Shown here: positions 13,424-28,654 of the stretch, one piece after another
Position numbering within the stretch: the first letter of the stretch is position 1
Layout: each line of letters begins with the position of its first letter
Source of the DNA: Chitinophagaceae bacterium
GTDB lineage: Bacteria; Bacteroidota; Bacteroidia; Chitinophagales; Chitinophagaceae
NCBI GenBank assembly: GCA_947456055.1
Contig: CANGSR010000003.1
Span: 1 to 48,580 of the forward strand
Length of the DNA: 48,580 nt
Direction: 5' to 3'
Notes under the pieces: generated by a model
Told to the model about the DNA's origin: nothing
Seen by the model: only the letters and a program-made list of their open reading frames with translations
The model's database searches: none
Position numbers and translations under genes: made by a program

Positions 13424-13957
13424 TTATGCGGCTTTTTTAGGTTCAATATAAAATAGTTCGTCCTGTACCACCTCTATTCCCAACGACACTAATACTGGTA
13501 CTACATTTTCTTTCTGCCTGTCGGCCAGCAGCAGGTCTTTGGCCGGTTCATCAATGGTTCGTACATAGGCGGGCAACTTGCTTTTCAACTCTGCTACCAC
13601 CTTAGCCCAATTGGTTCCCTTGGCCAGTTTCAGCCTTGGCGTTCCCAGCCTGAAACCCGCTACTGCATGCAGGGTTCCTATACTTCTTCTTTTGGCAAAC
13701 AGGTTGTCCTTATTATTGGTGCAGTAGTTCTGCACTATCTCAAACGCCCTGCACTTGCCCTGCGACAGGCAGGTAAGCTCGTCTTCGTATTTCTGAAGCA
13801 CATCGTTTACCTCCTCCTCTATACTCTTGTTTATTTCAGCTTCCCTGCGTCCTGCACTGGCATAGCGTTCCATAGCTTCTTCAAATTGGCCTTCGGTGAT
13901 TCCGGCCCCGGTCTTTTTTGCATTTCTTGTTTTCATTTTCAGTTTATTTAAGCTCAT
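13424..13957 (-). CDS. gam: Mu Gam-like host-nuclease inhibitor
   Basis: '...EINKSIEEEVNDVLQKYEDEL...RRSIGTLHAVAGFRLGTPRLKLAKGTNWAKVVAELKS...YVRTIDEPAKDLLLADRQKE'; the R.T..G..GFR.G.P.LK layout is Gam-like; ORF open to 13984, ATG at 13957 likely. Confidence 0.75.
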   Translation of the reverse strand: MSLNKLKMKTRNAKKTGAGITEGQFEEAMERYASAGRREAEINKSIEEEVNDVLQKYEDELTCLSQGKCRAFEIVQNYCTNNKDNLFAKRRSIGTLHAVAGFRLGTPRLKLAKGTNWAKVVAELKSKLPAYVRTIDEPAKDLLLADRQKENVVPVLVSLGIEVVQDELFYIEPKKAA

Positions 13958-14094
13958 CAGCACTTGTCCCCTGCTCACCTGCATGGTTTGGGCAACCCGG
14001 AGGCACCTGCTTTATATTATATCAAAAATCAATCCAAACACCAAAATATTGTAAAAATGTTTTACACAATTGGTATACCTGCCATTACCGACAA

Positions 14095-14412
14095 TCAGGC
14101 AGCCAATCGGCTCATCTTCTGCAATAAATTGTCTACTATCAGAGTTGCATACTTGTCGTGGCTTATGTCCAGTTGGTTCCACAGTTGGTAGAAGGCCATT
14201 GCCTCGGTGCCACTTAGAGCAAGCACATATTCCTCCTGGCTCCGTCGCAACATATCCCTCAGGTTTTTCTGCAACTCCATCAGAAATTCACGCAACAGTT
14301 TCTGGTGTTCGTTTACGGGTGTAAACTCCTCCATCATTTCGTCGCATATTTCCAGCAGGGCCTCCACCCTTTGGCAGCTTATCTGAACCCTTATGCTTCT
14401 TTTCTTAGCCAT
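14095..14412 (-). CDS. Hypothetical protein of the phage early module
   Basis: 105-aa ORF overlapping the upstream DnaA-like gene by 22 bp. Confidence 0.6.
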   Translation of the reverse strand: MAKKRSIRVQISCQRVEALLEICDEMMEEFTPVNEHQKLLREFLMELQKNLRDMLRRSQEEYVLALSGTEAMAFYQLWNQLDISHDKYATLIVDNLLQKMSRLAA

Positions 14413-14831
14413 ACATTTACTGCTTTAAGAGCCTTGTTGTATTTTTCCATAAAGTCCATATCATCGGAGTAAATGAGGTCATAGGCCCTTTTCAGTCCAT
14501 ACAAAATACTGGTATGATCCCGGCCACCAAACAAACTAGCTATCTGCTGCAAGGTGATGGATGGGAAATGCCTGCGCAAAAAGAGCGTTCCCAGAAACCT
14601 CAATTCGGCTATAGGGCGGGTATGCGTCTTCATGACATAGCAGGCAGGGCTCATATTTAGTGAGTTAGCTATTATGCCCATCATTTCCTCGGGTGTAACA
14701 AAATCGTTGCCTATTGGGCACAGGAGTAGATTTACCTTCATACCGGTTTTATCCTGTATGGTGCGCTGGGCCGAGCGGGCTATATGCCTTGCTGTGCTTA
14801 TCTGCTGTGCTGGAATGTAATGCATGTTCAT
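14391..14831 (-). CDS. DnaA C-terminal (domain IV) DNA-binding protein lacking the AAA+ domain
   Basis: 'RFLGTLFLRRHFPSITLQQIASLFGGRDHTSILYGLKRA' matches the DnaA domain IV signature (GGRDH(S/T)..LY). Confidence 0.85.
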   Translation of the reverse strand: MNMHYIPAQQISTARHIARSAQRTIQDKTGMKVNLLLCPIGNDFVTPEEMMGIIANSLNMSPACYVMKTHTRPIAELRFLGTLFLRRHFPSITLQQIASLFGGRDHTSILYGLKRAYDLIYSDDMDFMEKYNKALKAVNVWLRKEA

Positions 14832-14869
14832 ATATTCTGTTTTTTGTTTGTTTCTAATTTGGTTAAAAC

Positions 14870-15733
14870 TTAGGCGGCTACCTTCATATGGGTATATTCA
14901 CCTATCATGTTTATGGCTGTGTGCAGGTTATTGCTGCATTCTTCATTTATATGGGCTATTAATTCTTCTTCATATACCCCATTGGCTTTGCAAACCATTT
15001 CCACATCTTTTGGCCCAAGGCTGCCCAGGGTGATGAATCGGCGCCCTATACTTTTGTAGATATCATCATAACCCACTTTTTTCAATCTTACCCCATCCAC
15101 AATCCTCGATGGCAATTCATCATTACCCATTATTACCACACCTGTTCTGCCACCAAAACTTGTTGACAACAATACTATCAGGTGCAGTACTCTATCCTTA
15201 AGCAGATGGGCATCATCAAATATGATAAGTGGTTCTTCAGCCTCACTCAAATGGTTGCCGAGTGTGGTTATCATTTCGGGCATACTACCTTTTGCCTCAA
15301 TACCGGCAGCATGCAAAAGGGCCATCATAAACGACTTGCGGTTGTAGTTGGCATCGCATGCTATGTAGATGGTTGTGGCATTTTCTCGTGTATACCTGCG
15401 AGCCGTAAAAGACTTGCCCAGACCTGTGCCAATGGCGATTCCATAGGTCATGCCATAATGTTGTGCATCACCAAAAAGGATGCGGAGCAGCAAGTAGGCA
15501 CAGGTATCGGCAGGTTGCAGTTCCATAATATCCTGTCCGGTATAAAAGCCTACTTGGCGGGCTATATGTTGCCACAAGCGGTCGCTGAGTAGCTCCCAGT
15601 TATTGTTTTTAACCTGCGAAATAGTACTTGCACTTATGTCGTGCAGGCTATTGGCAGCAGCAGTTTGTGATTCAAACGTGTTAACGTAGCGTATCAACGC
15701 TTCCCTTACTTGTCTCTTCTGTTCGTTTGTCAT
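14870..15733 (-). CDS. MuB-like AAA ATPase (DNA transposition protein B)
   Basis: N-terminal HTH ('AANSLHDISASTISQVKNNNWELLSDRLWQHIARQVG'), Walker A-like 'IGTGLGKSFTARRY', Walker B 'PLIIFDDAHLL', 'IMGNDELPSRI'. Confidence 0.8.
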   Translation of the reverse strand: MTNEQKRQVREALIRYVNTFESQTAAANSLHDISASTISQVKNNNWELLSDRLWQHIARQVGFYTGQDIMELQPADTCAYLLLRILFGDAQHYGMTYGIAIGTGLGKSFTARRYTRENATTIYIACDANYNRKSFMMALLHAAGIEAKGSMPEMITTLGNHLSEAEEPLIIFDDAHLLKDRVLHLIVLLSTSFGGRTGVVIMGNDELPSRIVDGVRLKKVGYDDIYKSIGRRFITLGSLGPKDVEMVCKANGVYEEELIAHINEECSNNLHTAINMIGEYTHMKVAA

Positions 15734-16020
15734 ATATAACTCATTTAGAGGTTACTGATAGTGTTTGGGTTAGTTATGAGTTTTCCCGGCCAGCTCCACC
15801 AAAGTTTTTATCAAATGATAAAACCTGCCAAGACTTAAGTTGTGATTAATTACCTGTTTTTTGTCATTTCATGGATTTCAATAATTTTCGACAATAAATT
15901 TGGCACAAATCAAATTAATACGTATTTTTGATGCCTTATTGACCCGATTACAAGACAAAGATAAGTCAACTAATTTGACATTTCCAAATTTTGTGTAAAT
16001 AATTTTTTAAAATTTACTGT

Positions 16021-16851
16021 ATGCATTTAGCAAACAATCTAAAATATTTAAGAAAAAAATCTGCCAAAACGCAGGATGGGCTTAGTGTTGCGCTGAATAT
16101 TGGTCGTACAACCATTGCTAATTATGAGGCTGGAATTAGTGAACCGAATGTGGAAACTCTTTTGATGTTTTCCAAATTTTATGGAGTCACCCTCGATGAG
16201 CTGATGTCAAAAAATATGGAAGCCGCCGACCCCATCATTTCCCGTGCTGCCCTTAAGGCTAAAGAGAAAGACCAGTTGCTAAAAGCTGCATTTTCGCCTA
16301 AGCAAGACATGGGTTATAGCAGTATACCTAAGGTGGTAACAGTAGACAGCAGTGGTAATGACAATATTATCTATGTGCCTGTAAAGGCCCGTGCAGGATA
16401 CCTGCTTGGCTATGGTGATGCCGAATTTATTGAAACCCTACCCACCTTCCGCCTACCGGGTTTGAACAATTCTACATTCAGGATGTTTGAAGTTGAAGGC
16501 CCGTCAATGGCACCCAACGTTCTGAATGGTGACCGTATAATAGGCGAATGGGTTGATGCGTTGGATAAAATAAGGGATAACAGGGTATATGTAATAGTGC
16601 ACAAAGGTGGGGTAGCTGTAAAAAGAGTCATTAACCGCCTTGCTGAACGTGGCAAAATCTACCTAAAGTCTGATACTATAGCCCACAGGCACGAATTCCC
16701 AACAATTGAAATTGATCCTGCCGACATCAATGAAGTATGGTATGGACGTATGAAAATAAGCAGCGACTTTAGCGAGCCAGCCGAAGTTTACCACCGCCTT
16801 GCCGACCTGGAAATGGATGTAATGGAAATGAAACGATTACTCAAAGGATAA
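16021..16851 (+). CDS. Phage-type repressor: N-terminal XRE HTH plus C-terminal S24/LexA-like domain
   Basis: 'LRKKSAKTQDGLSVALNIGRTTIANYEAGISEPNVETLLMFSKFYGVTLDEL' and 'MFEVEGPSMAPNVLNGDRIIGEWVD...YVIVHKGGVAVKRVIN' with Ser/Lys dyad. Confidence 0.9.
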   Translation: MHLANNLKYLRKKSAKTQDGLSVALNIGRTTIANYEAGISEPNVETLLMFSKFYGVTLDELMSKNMEAADPIISRAALKAKEKDQLLKAAFSPKQDMGYSSIPKVVTVDSSGNDNIIYVPVKARAGYLLGYGDAEFIETLPTFRLPGLNNSTFRMFEVEGPSMAPNVLNGDRIIGEWVDALDKIRDNRVYVIVHKGGVAVKRVINRLAERGKIYLKSDTIAHRHEFPTIEIDPADINEVWYGRMKISSDFSEPAEVYHRLADLEMDVMEMKRLLKG

Positions 16852-17598: not shown

Positions 17599-19140
17599 TT
17601 AAATCTTAGCAACAGGCGTATTATTCAGGCTTTCTGTAACCAACCATGCAATGAATTGGGCAAATGGCTCAATGTTTTGGTTCACGCTGGCTTGCTCTAG
17701 GGCATTCATATATACGGCTCTCTGCTCCACGGGTATTACTGTCCATGGGTAGCCACCTGATGCCAACATTACGTTCATCAGAAATCTGGCCATCCTTCCA
17801 TTTCCATCCATATAAGGATGGATAAAAACAAAGATAAAATGCCCCAGAACAGCCCTAACCGAAGCCTCTGTTTCCAGCTCCAATAGTTCGAAAAATACAG
17901 GCATGGCATCACGCACGGCATCGGCATTCAAGGGTACATGCTTCGATTGGCCTATATAAACCTGGTGGTTTCTATAACCCGCAAGATCTGATGGTTTCAA
18001 TAATCCGGCAGTTACACTTGGTGAAAACAATCCCCTGAACCAATCACTATGTTCCCTATCGGCAATGGTTCCTGCATTTTGCCCATCCAGTATATTTTTA
18101 ATACTTCCCTTTACTATTTGAAATGCATCCAGATAGCCCTTGGCAGCCATAGCATCACGGTGTTTACGGTCATCCTCATTGGCTATAAAATTCCATTTAC
18201 CACTTTTCACCTTCTCAATCATCTCAGGGGTTACCTTGTACTTTTCAATAGAAAGTGAGTGGTAAGCATCTGTTACATAGATATCTTCTATACTTTTAAG
18301 ATAGAGTTCTTTATCAGCCTGTAAGCCCGGTGCAGCAGGAAAACAATTGATAACCTTTGTTCTCCATTCATTCCAAATCAAACGTATTCTGTTTCCATAT
18401 GGCGAACGCTCCCTGTTGGACAGTAATACAGGACTGGGCGTAAGGAAAGGGTCTGATTCCCTTACATCGTAATCTGCACTTTGCATGGTTTTCAATATAT
18501 CATCAGCTATCCTGGGTAGGTTTACATTTCTAAATGCACCAGCAAGCCTGCCTGCCACCACCGATTTCCCTCCATCGAGCAATAGTTTAAGTATGTCAGA
18601 TGAATCCCTGACCATTGATAGTGCAGTTCTTGCATCGGTAGGGTTTTGCTGAAAAGTATTTGCTGAACAATTGATTAATGCTGCGGGCAGGGTGTATACC
18701 CTCATCCCATCTAATTTAGTAATATCATTACTTAACTGCAGCCTTAGGCTGAAAAGGGATGTATTAAAAAGCAAATCAGATTTATTATTATTTGCCTCCG
18801 GCGACCTTACTACTAATTGATTCGGTACTGTCCAATTACCTGCATACAATAATAAAGATTGCTCTGGCGAAAGACACCAATTTTCTTTATAAATATAATC
18901 GAGGTATTGCTGGCAAAACAACCAATAGGAGCTATACCATGAAGTGCTATCACCCAGGCTTTCTTCGGGTGATGAAATAATAAACCAACCTTTAAAAACC
19001 TCTTTTATAAATCCTCGCCCCAAAAGACGCTCCCTGTAAGTTCGGGAAAGTGAAGTAGCAGGAATGGCCACCATACCAGTATCCTGCAAATCTTTTAATT
19101 GCTCTAACGATTCTGCCAATTTCTCTGCCGGTGTAGCCAT
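17599..19140 (-). CDS. Fic family protein with N-terminal wHTH/AbiEi-like region
   Basis: Fic motif 'HPYMDGNGRMARFLMNVML'; N-term 'LEQLKDLQDTGMVAIPATSLSRTYRERLLGRGFIKEVFKGWFIISSP' resembles AbiEi-type winged helix. Confidence 0.9.
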   Translation of the reverse strand: MATPAEKLAESLEQLKDLQDTGMVAIPATSLSRTYRERLLGRGFIKEVFKGWFIISSPEESLGDSTSWYSSYWLFCQQYLDYIYKENWCLSPEQSLLLYAGNWTVPNQLVVRSPEANNNKSDLLFNTSLFSLRLQLSNDITKLDGMRVYTLPAALINCSANTFQQNPTDARTALSMVRDSSDILKLLLDGGKSVVAGRLAGAFRNVNLPRIADDILKTMQSADYDVRESDPFLTPSPVLLSNRERSPYGNRIRLIWNEWRTKVINCFPAAPGLQADKELYLKSIEDIYVTDAYHSLSIEKYKVTPEMIEKVKSGKWNFIANEDDRKHRDAMAAKGYLDAFQIVKGSIKNILDGQNAGTIADREHSDWFRGLFSPSVTAGLLKPSDLAGYRNHQVYIGQSKHVPLNADAVRDAMPVFFELLELETEASVRAVLGHFIFVFIHPYMDGNGRMARFLMNVMLASGGYPWTVIPVEQRAVYMNALEQASVNQNIEPFAQFIAWLVTESLNNTPVAKI

Positions 19141-19146
19141 ACCGCA

Positions 19147-19154
19147 AAGTTAGA
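19147..19154 (-). promoter_or_regulatory. Putative Bacteroidota -7 element of fic (TAACTTTG), giving a near-leaderless transcript
   Basis: TAACTTTG matches TAnnTTTG; 6 nt upstream of the ATG. Confidence 0.45.
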
Positions 19155-19159
19155 ACTTT

Positions 19160-19375
19160 GTACCAAATTTCTTAAATAATGTTGTACTATTTTTCTTAGA
19201 TGATGCTGTACCATTTCTCTTAAATGATGCCGTACCATTTCTCTTAAATGATGCCGTACCATTTCTCTTAAATGATGCCGTACCATTTCTCTTAAATGAT
19301 GTTGTACCATTTCTCTTAAATGATGCTGCACCATTTCTCTAATAAGACGTTGTACTATTTCTCTAATATTATGCT
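19160..19375. repeat. Nine tandem 24-bp repeats upstream of fic, consensus GTACCATTTCTCTTAAATGATGCC
   Basis: Units at 19160, 19184, 19208, 19232, 19256, 19280, 19304, 19328, 19352, exact 24-bp period; units 3-5 identical, outer units diverged. Confidence 0.95.
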
Positions 19376-19576
19376 TTAGAGATAATCATCAATTAAATTG
19401 GTGGGCAGAATGACAGTCTACAAAACAACACACAAGATATAATGTTCAATAAATCAGACAATAAATATACTATTGCTCAATTTTATAATCAGAAAACTGG
19501 CAAAAATATTTCTAAATTCCAACCAATAAACCAGAAACGACTATCTACTAAGTGCTATATACTAACTACCAAAGAC

Positions 19577-27053: not shown

Positions 27054-27162
27054 AAACGACCGAAACGACCACTAAACATCCACTAAACGACCGAAAGGAC
27101 CACTAAACTACCGAAACTACCGCTAAACTACCGCTAAACTACCGAAACTACCGAAACTACCG
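27054..27162. repeat. Upstream iteron array: 11 units of 9 bp (AAACnACCG) or 11 bp (AAACnACC(G/A)CT)
   Basis: Units 27054, 27063, 27074, 27085, 27094, 27105, 27114, 27125, 27136, 27145, 27154 with no spacer. Confidence 0.95.
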
Positions 27163-27164
27163 AT

Positions 27165-27234: not shown

Positions 27235-28563
27235 ATGGCTGAAGACCAAAACATAGAATATAAAGAATCATGGCGGGATGACTACCTGAAATGGATTTGT
27301 GGATTTGCCAATGCCCAGGGAGGAAAAATTTTCATTGGTATTGATGATAAGGGTGTAGTTACAGGAGTTGAAGATTTTAAAAAACTACTTGAAGATATAC
27401 CCAATAAAGCCATTAGCCATCTTGGGTTGATGCTTGATGTAAACCATCTTACAAAAAACAAAAAACATTTTATTGAAATATCAGTTCAGCCGAGTAGTGT
27501 ACCTATATCCTATGCAGGCAGGTACTATTATAGAAGTGGCAGCACTAAGCAGGAACTGAAAGGAAATGCATTGCACCAATTTCTAATGAAGAAAATTGGT
27601 ATGTCATGGGAACAACGGCCAATTCCAGAAGCTACCATAAAAGATATTGATGAAAGTGCAATAAGAAACTTTATACAAAAAGCATATACAAACCATCGTA
27701 TTGCCGATAATGCAAGCCAGACCGACACTATCACATTACTTAAAAACCTTGATTTAATAAATGATAATGGCGAGCTTCTTCTGGCTGCTTTGCTTTTATT
27801 TGGCAAAAAACCTACACGTTATTCCCAGTCAGCGTATTTTAAAATAGGGAAGTTTGGTAAATCAGAAGCTGACTTATTGTTTCAGGATATTGTAGAAGGT
27901 AATATCCTGGAAATGGCCGATAAGGTGATGGCAATTTTGGAAAGCAAATACCTAACCCGTCCCATATCTTACAAAGGACTACTCCGGATGGAACCACTGG
28001 AATATCCCGAACCTGCTTTAAGAGAAGCAATACTTAATGCCATCATCCATAAAGACTACTCTGAAACAACTGTTTTTCTAAGTATCTACGACCATAAACT
28101 AACAATCTGGAATCCTGGTAGGTTACCTGATTCATGGAATGCAGGTGTACTTAAAGCTCCCCACCATTCCCGGCCCCGCAACCGATGCATTGCCGACGTT
28201 TTCTTCAAAGCCGGTTATATTGAATCATGGGGAAGAGGAATACGTGTTATGCTGGAATCATGTAAAGAGGCGGGACTACCCGAACCAATTATAGAAGAGT
28301 ACCTTGATGGTGTCCAGGTTACTTTTCTCAAAGACACTTATTCCGAAGAATATTTACGTACACTCGATATTAATGAGCGTCAGGTTAAAGCCGTACTATA
28401 TGTAAAGGAAAAAAAATCTATCAAAAGTTCAGAGTACCAGTTGCTCAATGATGTTGGAAAATCAGTTGCCACTGATGAACTTAGAGACTTGATTGACAAA
28501 AATATTTTGGAAAAACAAGGTTCTACCGGGCGAGGAACGAAGTTTGTTCTATTAATAAAATAA
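27235..28563 (+). CDS. AlbA_2 (Schlafen-type DNA/RNA-binding) plus HATPase_c_4 domain protein with C-terminal wHTH-like region
   Basis: 'EYKESWRDDYLKWICGFANAQGGKIFIGIDDKGVVTGV' (AlbA_2), 'PEPALREAILNAIIHKDYSE', 'HHSRPRNRCIADVFFKAGYIESWGRGIRVMLESCKEAGLPEP' (HATPase_c_4). Confidence 0.92.
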   Translation: MAEDQNIEYKESWRDDYLKWICGFANAQGGKIFIGIDDKGVVTGVEDFKKLLEDIPNKAISHLGLMLDVNHLTKNKKHFIEISVQPSSVPISYAGRYYYRSGSTKQELKGNALHQFLMKKIGMSWEQRPIPEATIKDIDESAIRNFIQKAYTNHRIADNASQTDTITLLKNLDLINDNGELLLAALLLFGKKPTRYSQSAYFKIGKFGKSEADLLFQDIVEGNILEMADKVMAILESKYLTRPISYKGLLRMEPLEYPEPALREAILNAIIHKDYSETTVFLSIYDHKLTIWNPGRLPDSWNAGVLKAPHHSRPRNRCIADVFFKAGYIESWGRGIRVMLESCKEAGLPEPIIEEYLDGVQVTFLKDTYSEEYLRTLDINERQVKAVLYVKEKKSIKSSEYQLLNDVGKSVATDELRDLIDKNILEKQGSTGRGTKFVLLIK

Positions 28564-28654
28564 ACTACCGCTAAACTACCGAAACTACCGCTAAACTACC
28601 GCTAAACTACCGAAACTACCGCTAAACATCCACTTAACGACCGAAACGACCACT
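28562..28654. repeat. Downstream iteron array: 9 units of the same 9/11-bp family, overlapping the AlbA_2 stop codon
   Basis: Units 28562, 28573, 28582, 28593, 28604, 28613, 28624, 28635, 28644; same words AAACTACCG(CT), AAACATCCACT, AACGACCG. Confidence 0.95.

Follow-up and report, generated by a model that had tools for sequence, protein, structure and literature searches.

The Fic enzyme encoded in a 48,580-nucleotide stretch of Chitinophagaceae DNA (hereafter referred to as the window) very probably binds the promoter of its own gene and so represses that gene, judging from sequence comparison across its family: an array of nine head-to-tail 24-bp units stands upstream of the fic gene, and this array has evolved letter for letter with the part of the protein that reads DNA. 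Computation placed such arrays in front of the gene throughout the family, located them on promoters and revealed covariation with the N-terminal domain of the protein at two points. We conclude that the array is likely to be the operator of the fic gene itself, read by the Fic N-terminal domain and repressing fic.

At the window locus, Tandem Repeats Finder (TRF) delimited the array at 19159–19375, with a period of 24, 9.0 copies, 87% matches and 0% indels, and the period-24 score lay 76 SD over dinucleotide shuffles. These values bear out an initial annotation of this DNA, which had described nine units of exactly 24 bp with identical central units; three central units are indeed identical. 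The same annotation had placed the end of the array about 20 bp before the fic start codon and next to a −7-type element. The measured distance from the last unit to the ATG (19140–19138) is 22 bp, and TAACTTTG is present between the two, separated from the last unit by 10 bp and from the ATG by 4 nt. Coordinates of the locus are listed in Table 1, with the array in the family-wide unit register. A search of the 4.97-Mb assembly with the array sequence, at ≤3 mismatches, returned seven matches, all at the fic locus (reversed control, 0); the rest of the assembly has no further copy of the array.

Table 1 Features of the fic locus in window coordinates
Feature	Position	Strand	Basis
fic gene, 513 aa, AbiEi-like N-terminal domain and class II Fic domain	17599..19140	-	Pfam Fic PF02661 1.6e-11; AF2; Foldseek
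Codons 441-452 HPYMDGNGRMAR, FIC catalytic motif	17785..17820	-	Sequence
Codons 295-300 SLSIEK, inhibitory-helix-like motif (S/T)xxxE(G/N)	18241..18258	-	Family alignment
Codons 1-240, AbiEi-type domain (wHTH and second subdomain)	18421..19140	-	AF2 pLDDT 97.0; Foldseek
Codons 114-118, loop of beta-hairpin 108-113/119-122	18787..18801	-	Model; residue 117 covaries with unit position 14
Codons 33-41, predicted recognition helix	19018..19044	-	DSSP on model; R33/C6 covariation
TAACTTTG, candidate Bacteroidota -7 promoter element	19145..19152	-	Sequence; same element in 98%-identical homologue L006
Array of nine head-to-tail 24-bp units	19163..19378	-	Unit TAC(A/G)RCATCATTTAAGAGAAATGG; TRF and family-wide unit model

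Homologues of the fic gene were drawn from whole genomes, genome contigs, viral contigs and plasmids, with start codons taken from alignments, and 51 periods were compared in each upstream region of 100 non-redundant homologues. The best period was 24 in 78 of them, 48 in 10 and 23 in 9, and most of the 23-bp arrays fall in a single divergent clade, made up of Bacteroidota family f38 together with some viral contigs. Nearly all of the 100 homologues thus carry a 24- or 23-bp array, the reverse of the repeat-free upstream regions that the initial annotation had named as refuting its proposal. A threshold of ≥12 on the period-24 score retains 85% of the fic homologues and none of 1008 regions in front of other ORFs at these loci. 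Of the 22 other Fic genes scored, one passes this threshold and 21 have no array. Copy number is typically 3–5 and ranges from 3 to 9 among well-called arrays, so that the nine units of the window are the maximum seen; the median distance from array to start codon is 20 bp. The repeat sequences vary between clades and loci, while their spacing is constant. Two genus-level relatives (L003 and L005) have degenerate arrays, indicating that few units may suffice.

The family is patchily distributed, occurring in 8 of 35 genomes of the genus and in ~5% of the genomes of the class. The 78 plasmid records that carry it include 41 predicted to be conjugative, whereas phage records gave no match. Arrays are present in all 12 plasmid copies that were not part of the discovery set, one with a period of 23 and one with mixed spacing (best period 47). 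By record title, homologues with arrays come from at least seven phyla, some of these records being metagenome bins that are perhaps misassigned. No conserved neighbour or partner gene emerged among 74 fic loci, and the array accompanies the gene over phyla and plasmids without a common neighbour. In several family members, frameshifts or stops break the gene into two neighbouring pieces (L049/L053, L050/L054, L048/L055 and L235/L237), from which we infer that the fic gene is often decaying or switched off. At one locus (L227, G605:C40), the 24-bp repeats upstream of fic can also be translated, in an open frame, as 8-residue repeats (AQQ..KL..), and this array may overlap the end of an upstream coding sequence.

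The family consensus of the unit is approximately (T/C)ACAACA-N2-AATAA(G/C/A)CTAA-TnATGG. Unit similarity is 64% within a locus versus 46% between loci, as expected if array units were homogenised over evolution. An imperfect palindrome had also been attributed to each unit. At the window locus it is present as AAATGaTgCCGtAcCATTT, with marginal significance (p 0.045), but this holds for the window locus only: across homologues, palindromes within the unit are no commoner than expected by chance (p<0.05 in 4 of 80). The conserved unit is therefore asymmetric, and we rejected a palindromic operator unit.

The arrays are closely associated with promoters. TAnnTTTG is the Bacteroidota −7 consensus, and it lies in or near the array at 34 of 43 Bacteroidota loci versus 3 of 37 others. 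A sigma-70 promoter resembling TCGACA/TTGACA-N17-TACAAC, usually with an extended TGn, spans two successive units in constant phase at 16 of the 37 non-Bacteroidota loci and at 0 of the 43 Bacteroidota loci. From these two distributions it follows that the array overlays or adjoins the promoter used by each lineage. The promoter box precedes the array in some Bacteroidota and follows it in others, so repression could not have one and the same geometry throughout.

According to the AlphaFold2 (AF2) model of the full protein (pLDDT 93.8), the window protein combines an AbiEi-type domain at its N terminus with a class II Fic domain. Foldseek searches with residues 1–240 of the model retrieved AbiEi (6y8q, E 1e-4) and Rv2827c (1zel, E 1.6e-3), with the next match at 2e-2, in agreement with the AbiEi-like N-terminal region named in the initial annotation. 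The wHTH occupies residues 1–55; the protein ends ~60 residues past the FIC motif, and the model contains no C-terminal HTH after the Fic domain. The FIC motif reads HPYMDGNGR, which fits the class II motif HPFx(D/E)GN(G/K)R with Y for F, as in listed family variants. Of the inhibitory-helix-like motif, SLSIE is invariant in the family, and the last place is G in 54 of 104 sequences and K in the window protein. The PADLOC SoFic profile matches residues 287–508 at 7e-20, and the nearest Fic domain by both fold and sequence is that of FICD. Across 296 genomes, the N-terminal domain turned up nowhere without Fic or with another effector in its place.

We scanned for covariation between protein residues and unit bases, and the pairs found were then checked via masked registers, independent pairs and plasmid copies. 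Arg33, the first residue of the recognition helix, coincides exactly with C at base 6 of the unit: Arg33 is present in 85 of 85 sequences with C6 and in 0 of 13 otherwise (98 sequences). This pair (r=1.000) is the first of 75,335 residue–base pairs, with the register fixed while unit positions 5–8 were masked. It also came first in the first mutual-information ranking with product correction; by raw normalised mutual information it was second, after residue 80 and base 17, a pair that dropped out once at least six sequences per minority class were required. On a tree built from residues 191 onward, residue 33 and base 6 change about six times, always jointly, with only two of the changes forced by well-supported branches. 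The class without Arg33 was extended with loci beyond the first scan (L064, L065 and L076) and not by the plasmid set, in which Arg33 is present in 12 of 12 copies and base 6 is mostly C (tied in the copy on p5482 of Bacteroides thetaiotaomicron VPI-5482, BT_RS24275, locus L259).

A second contact point is suggested by base 14 and residue 117, which sits in a hairpin loop of the second subdomain. Arg117 occurs with G14 in 23 of 24 cases and Gly117 with C14 in 11 of 12, and the traits at these two positions undergo 17–20 changes on the tree. Independent pairs for Arg117 and G14 were 13.0 concordant versus 0.2 discordant, placing this residue state first of 1235 over the whole protein; a control residue in the Fic domain gave 1.7 concordant versus 0.1 discordant. 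Among the 12 plasmid copies, Arg117 and G14 are present together in 2 and both absent in 10. Arg–guanine contacts are the common mode by which such residues read DNA. The covariation at two points indicates that one AbiEi-type domain probably reads both halves of one unit, and it lends strong in silico support to the earlier proposal that the N-terminal wHTH recognises the repeats in front of its own gene. Elsewhere in the unit, plasmid copies whose residue 112 is not Arg or Lys (L264–L270 and L138) often have units ending CGTG or CTTG rather than CTAA (position 17), and residue 112 with position 17 is a possible third contact.

On the strength of these comparisons, we are highly confident that the Fic N-terminal domain binds the array. 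The net effect of the predicted binding is likely to be autorepression, because arrays sit on promoters. Each asymmetric 24-bp unit would hold one Fic protein, and several copies would align head to tail over the core promoter at a fixed pitch of 24 bp (23 bp in some members), where they would block RNA polymerase. Whether the bound copies form a cooperative head-to-tail filament is an even call. A stand-alone, mobile, predicted AMP-transferase would in this way be held at a low, self-limiting level, with array units being gained, lost and homogenised during evolution.

DNA binding could also control enzyme activity and not transcription. The array would then be mainly an allosteric or sequestering platform on which bound Fic is inactive or altered, so that active enzyme is set free when the array is lost or occluded, and repression is secondary. 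The activity of CbFic2 is reported to respond to DNA binding and dimerisation (PMC10628234); the strict pitch suggests contacts between neighbouring subunits, and a separate antitoxin gene is missing from the locus. However, the coincidence of arrays with promoters is explained by repression and needless for sequestration, a handful of sites can hold just a handful of molecules, and the putative inhibitory SLSIE helix could already provide autoinhibition. We consider such a platform unlikely. Slightly less likely again is a one-gene addiction or defence module with DNA as the antitoxin, in which Fic would be silenced in both expression and activity while on the array; if this were true, destruction or occlusion of the array, through loss of the element or phage attack on the chromosome, would free an active AMP-transferase.

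Another regulator, a host or phage protein, might bind the array and control fic while the Fic N-terminal domain does not. This is very unlikely, given that residues 33 and 117 covary with two unit bases independently of phylogeny and that the array accompanies the gene into different phyla and plasmids without any neighbour in common. Least credible of all is a role for the repeats as RNA, as in type III toxin–antitoxin systems with their repeat antitoxins, or as replication iterons. Tandem repeats do stand directly before a toxin-like gene, and the window array can fold (z −3.8), but conserved folding is missing from the family (the median z is −0.36 across 80 loci), which disfavours type III RNA repeats, and many loci have their promoter inside the array or after it. 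Arrays are also present in chromosomes that lack a rep gene, and they always occur with this Fic family. We rejected the array as plasmid iterons or as an end of the nearby Mu-like phage because it travels with the fic family in unrelated contexts, and its origin by chance is disfavoured.

Other features of the window include Mu-like phage genes at 13424–16851, encoding Gam (PF07352), an AAA ATPase resembling MuB, a DnaA C-terminal-like protein and a divergent S24-type repressor; the ORFs listed for this interval include no MuA-like transposase. Repeats of the AAACTACCG(C) type form two arrays (27054–27163 and 28561–28651), degenerate at their outer ends and perfect at their inner ends, on either side of an ORF at 27235–28563 that encodes a 442-aa, AlbA/Schlafen-like, ATP-binding protein. 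This is possibly a second protein with its own repeats, and a similar AlbA/Schlafen-like ORF is present near another fic locus (L057).

Self-repression by Fic, the reading that we prefer, would tie a widespread, plasmid-borne, predicted AMP-transferase to a dedicated promoter array that it would read itself. The covariation also offers a residue-to-base code for AbiEi-type readers (R33/C6, R117/G14 and Gly117/C14), and it opens testable questions as to how an AbiEi fold reads 23–24 bp and how a toxin-like Fic is restrained without a partner antitoxin. We found no earlier description of an AbiEi–Fic fusion or of such an array in the open-licence literature, which was covered largely at the level of titles and abstracts.

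The closest relatives of the N-terminal domain are AbiEi and Rv2827c (COG5340; antitoxin-repressors, AbiE type IV toxin–antitoxin), which have the same fold and autorepress by binding 23-bp half-sites over their own promoters (PMC3985639, PMC7319586). Both likewise cover 23–24 bp per protomer over the promoter, and one protomer per unit would apply to Fic. Their operators, by contrast, are inverted pairs, whereas the Fic array consists of direct head-to-tail repeats in 3–9 copies, and they lack the fusion of the AbiEi-type domain to a Fic enzyme. No AbiEii/DUF1814 toxin gene lies next to fic; the next gene in the window encodes a GNAT protein, and none of the 74 loci shares a conserved neighbour.

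Among Fic proteins, FICD resembles the window protein, with its putative inhibitory helix, in having such a helix N-terminal to the core and is the nearest solved Fic domain, but it is a eukaryotic ER protein without a DNA-binding domain. SoFic and CbFic2 are, as here, class II Fic proteins with a wHTH, and they have an inhibitory motif, for which SLSIE is the candidate here. Their wHTH is C-terminal and they lack an N-terminal AbiEi domain, unlike the window protein, and operator arrays are not reported for them in the parts of the literature available. The precedent of CbFic2 makes an additional effect of DNA binding on Fic activity possible. The Fic AMP-transferase CccR of Yersinia pseudotuberculosis binds the promoter of its own gene and represses it (PMC9755527), the action that we predict for the window protein. 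CccR does so with a C-terminal HTH at one inverted repeat (10 bp, 26-bp spacer, 10 bp), in contrast to the N-terminal AbiEi-type domain and direct-repeat array described here; by analogy, this precedent makes autorepression by Fic plausible, through another architecture.
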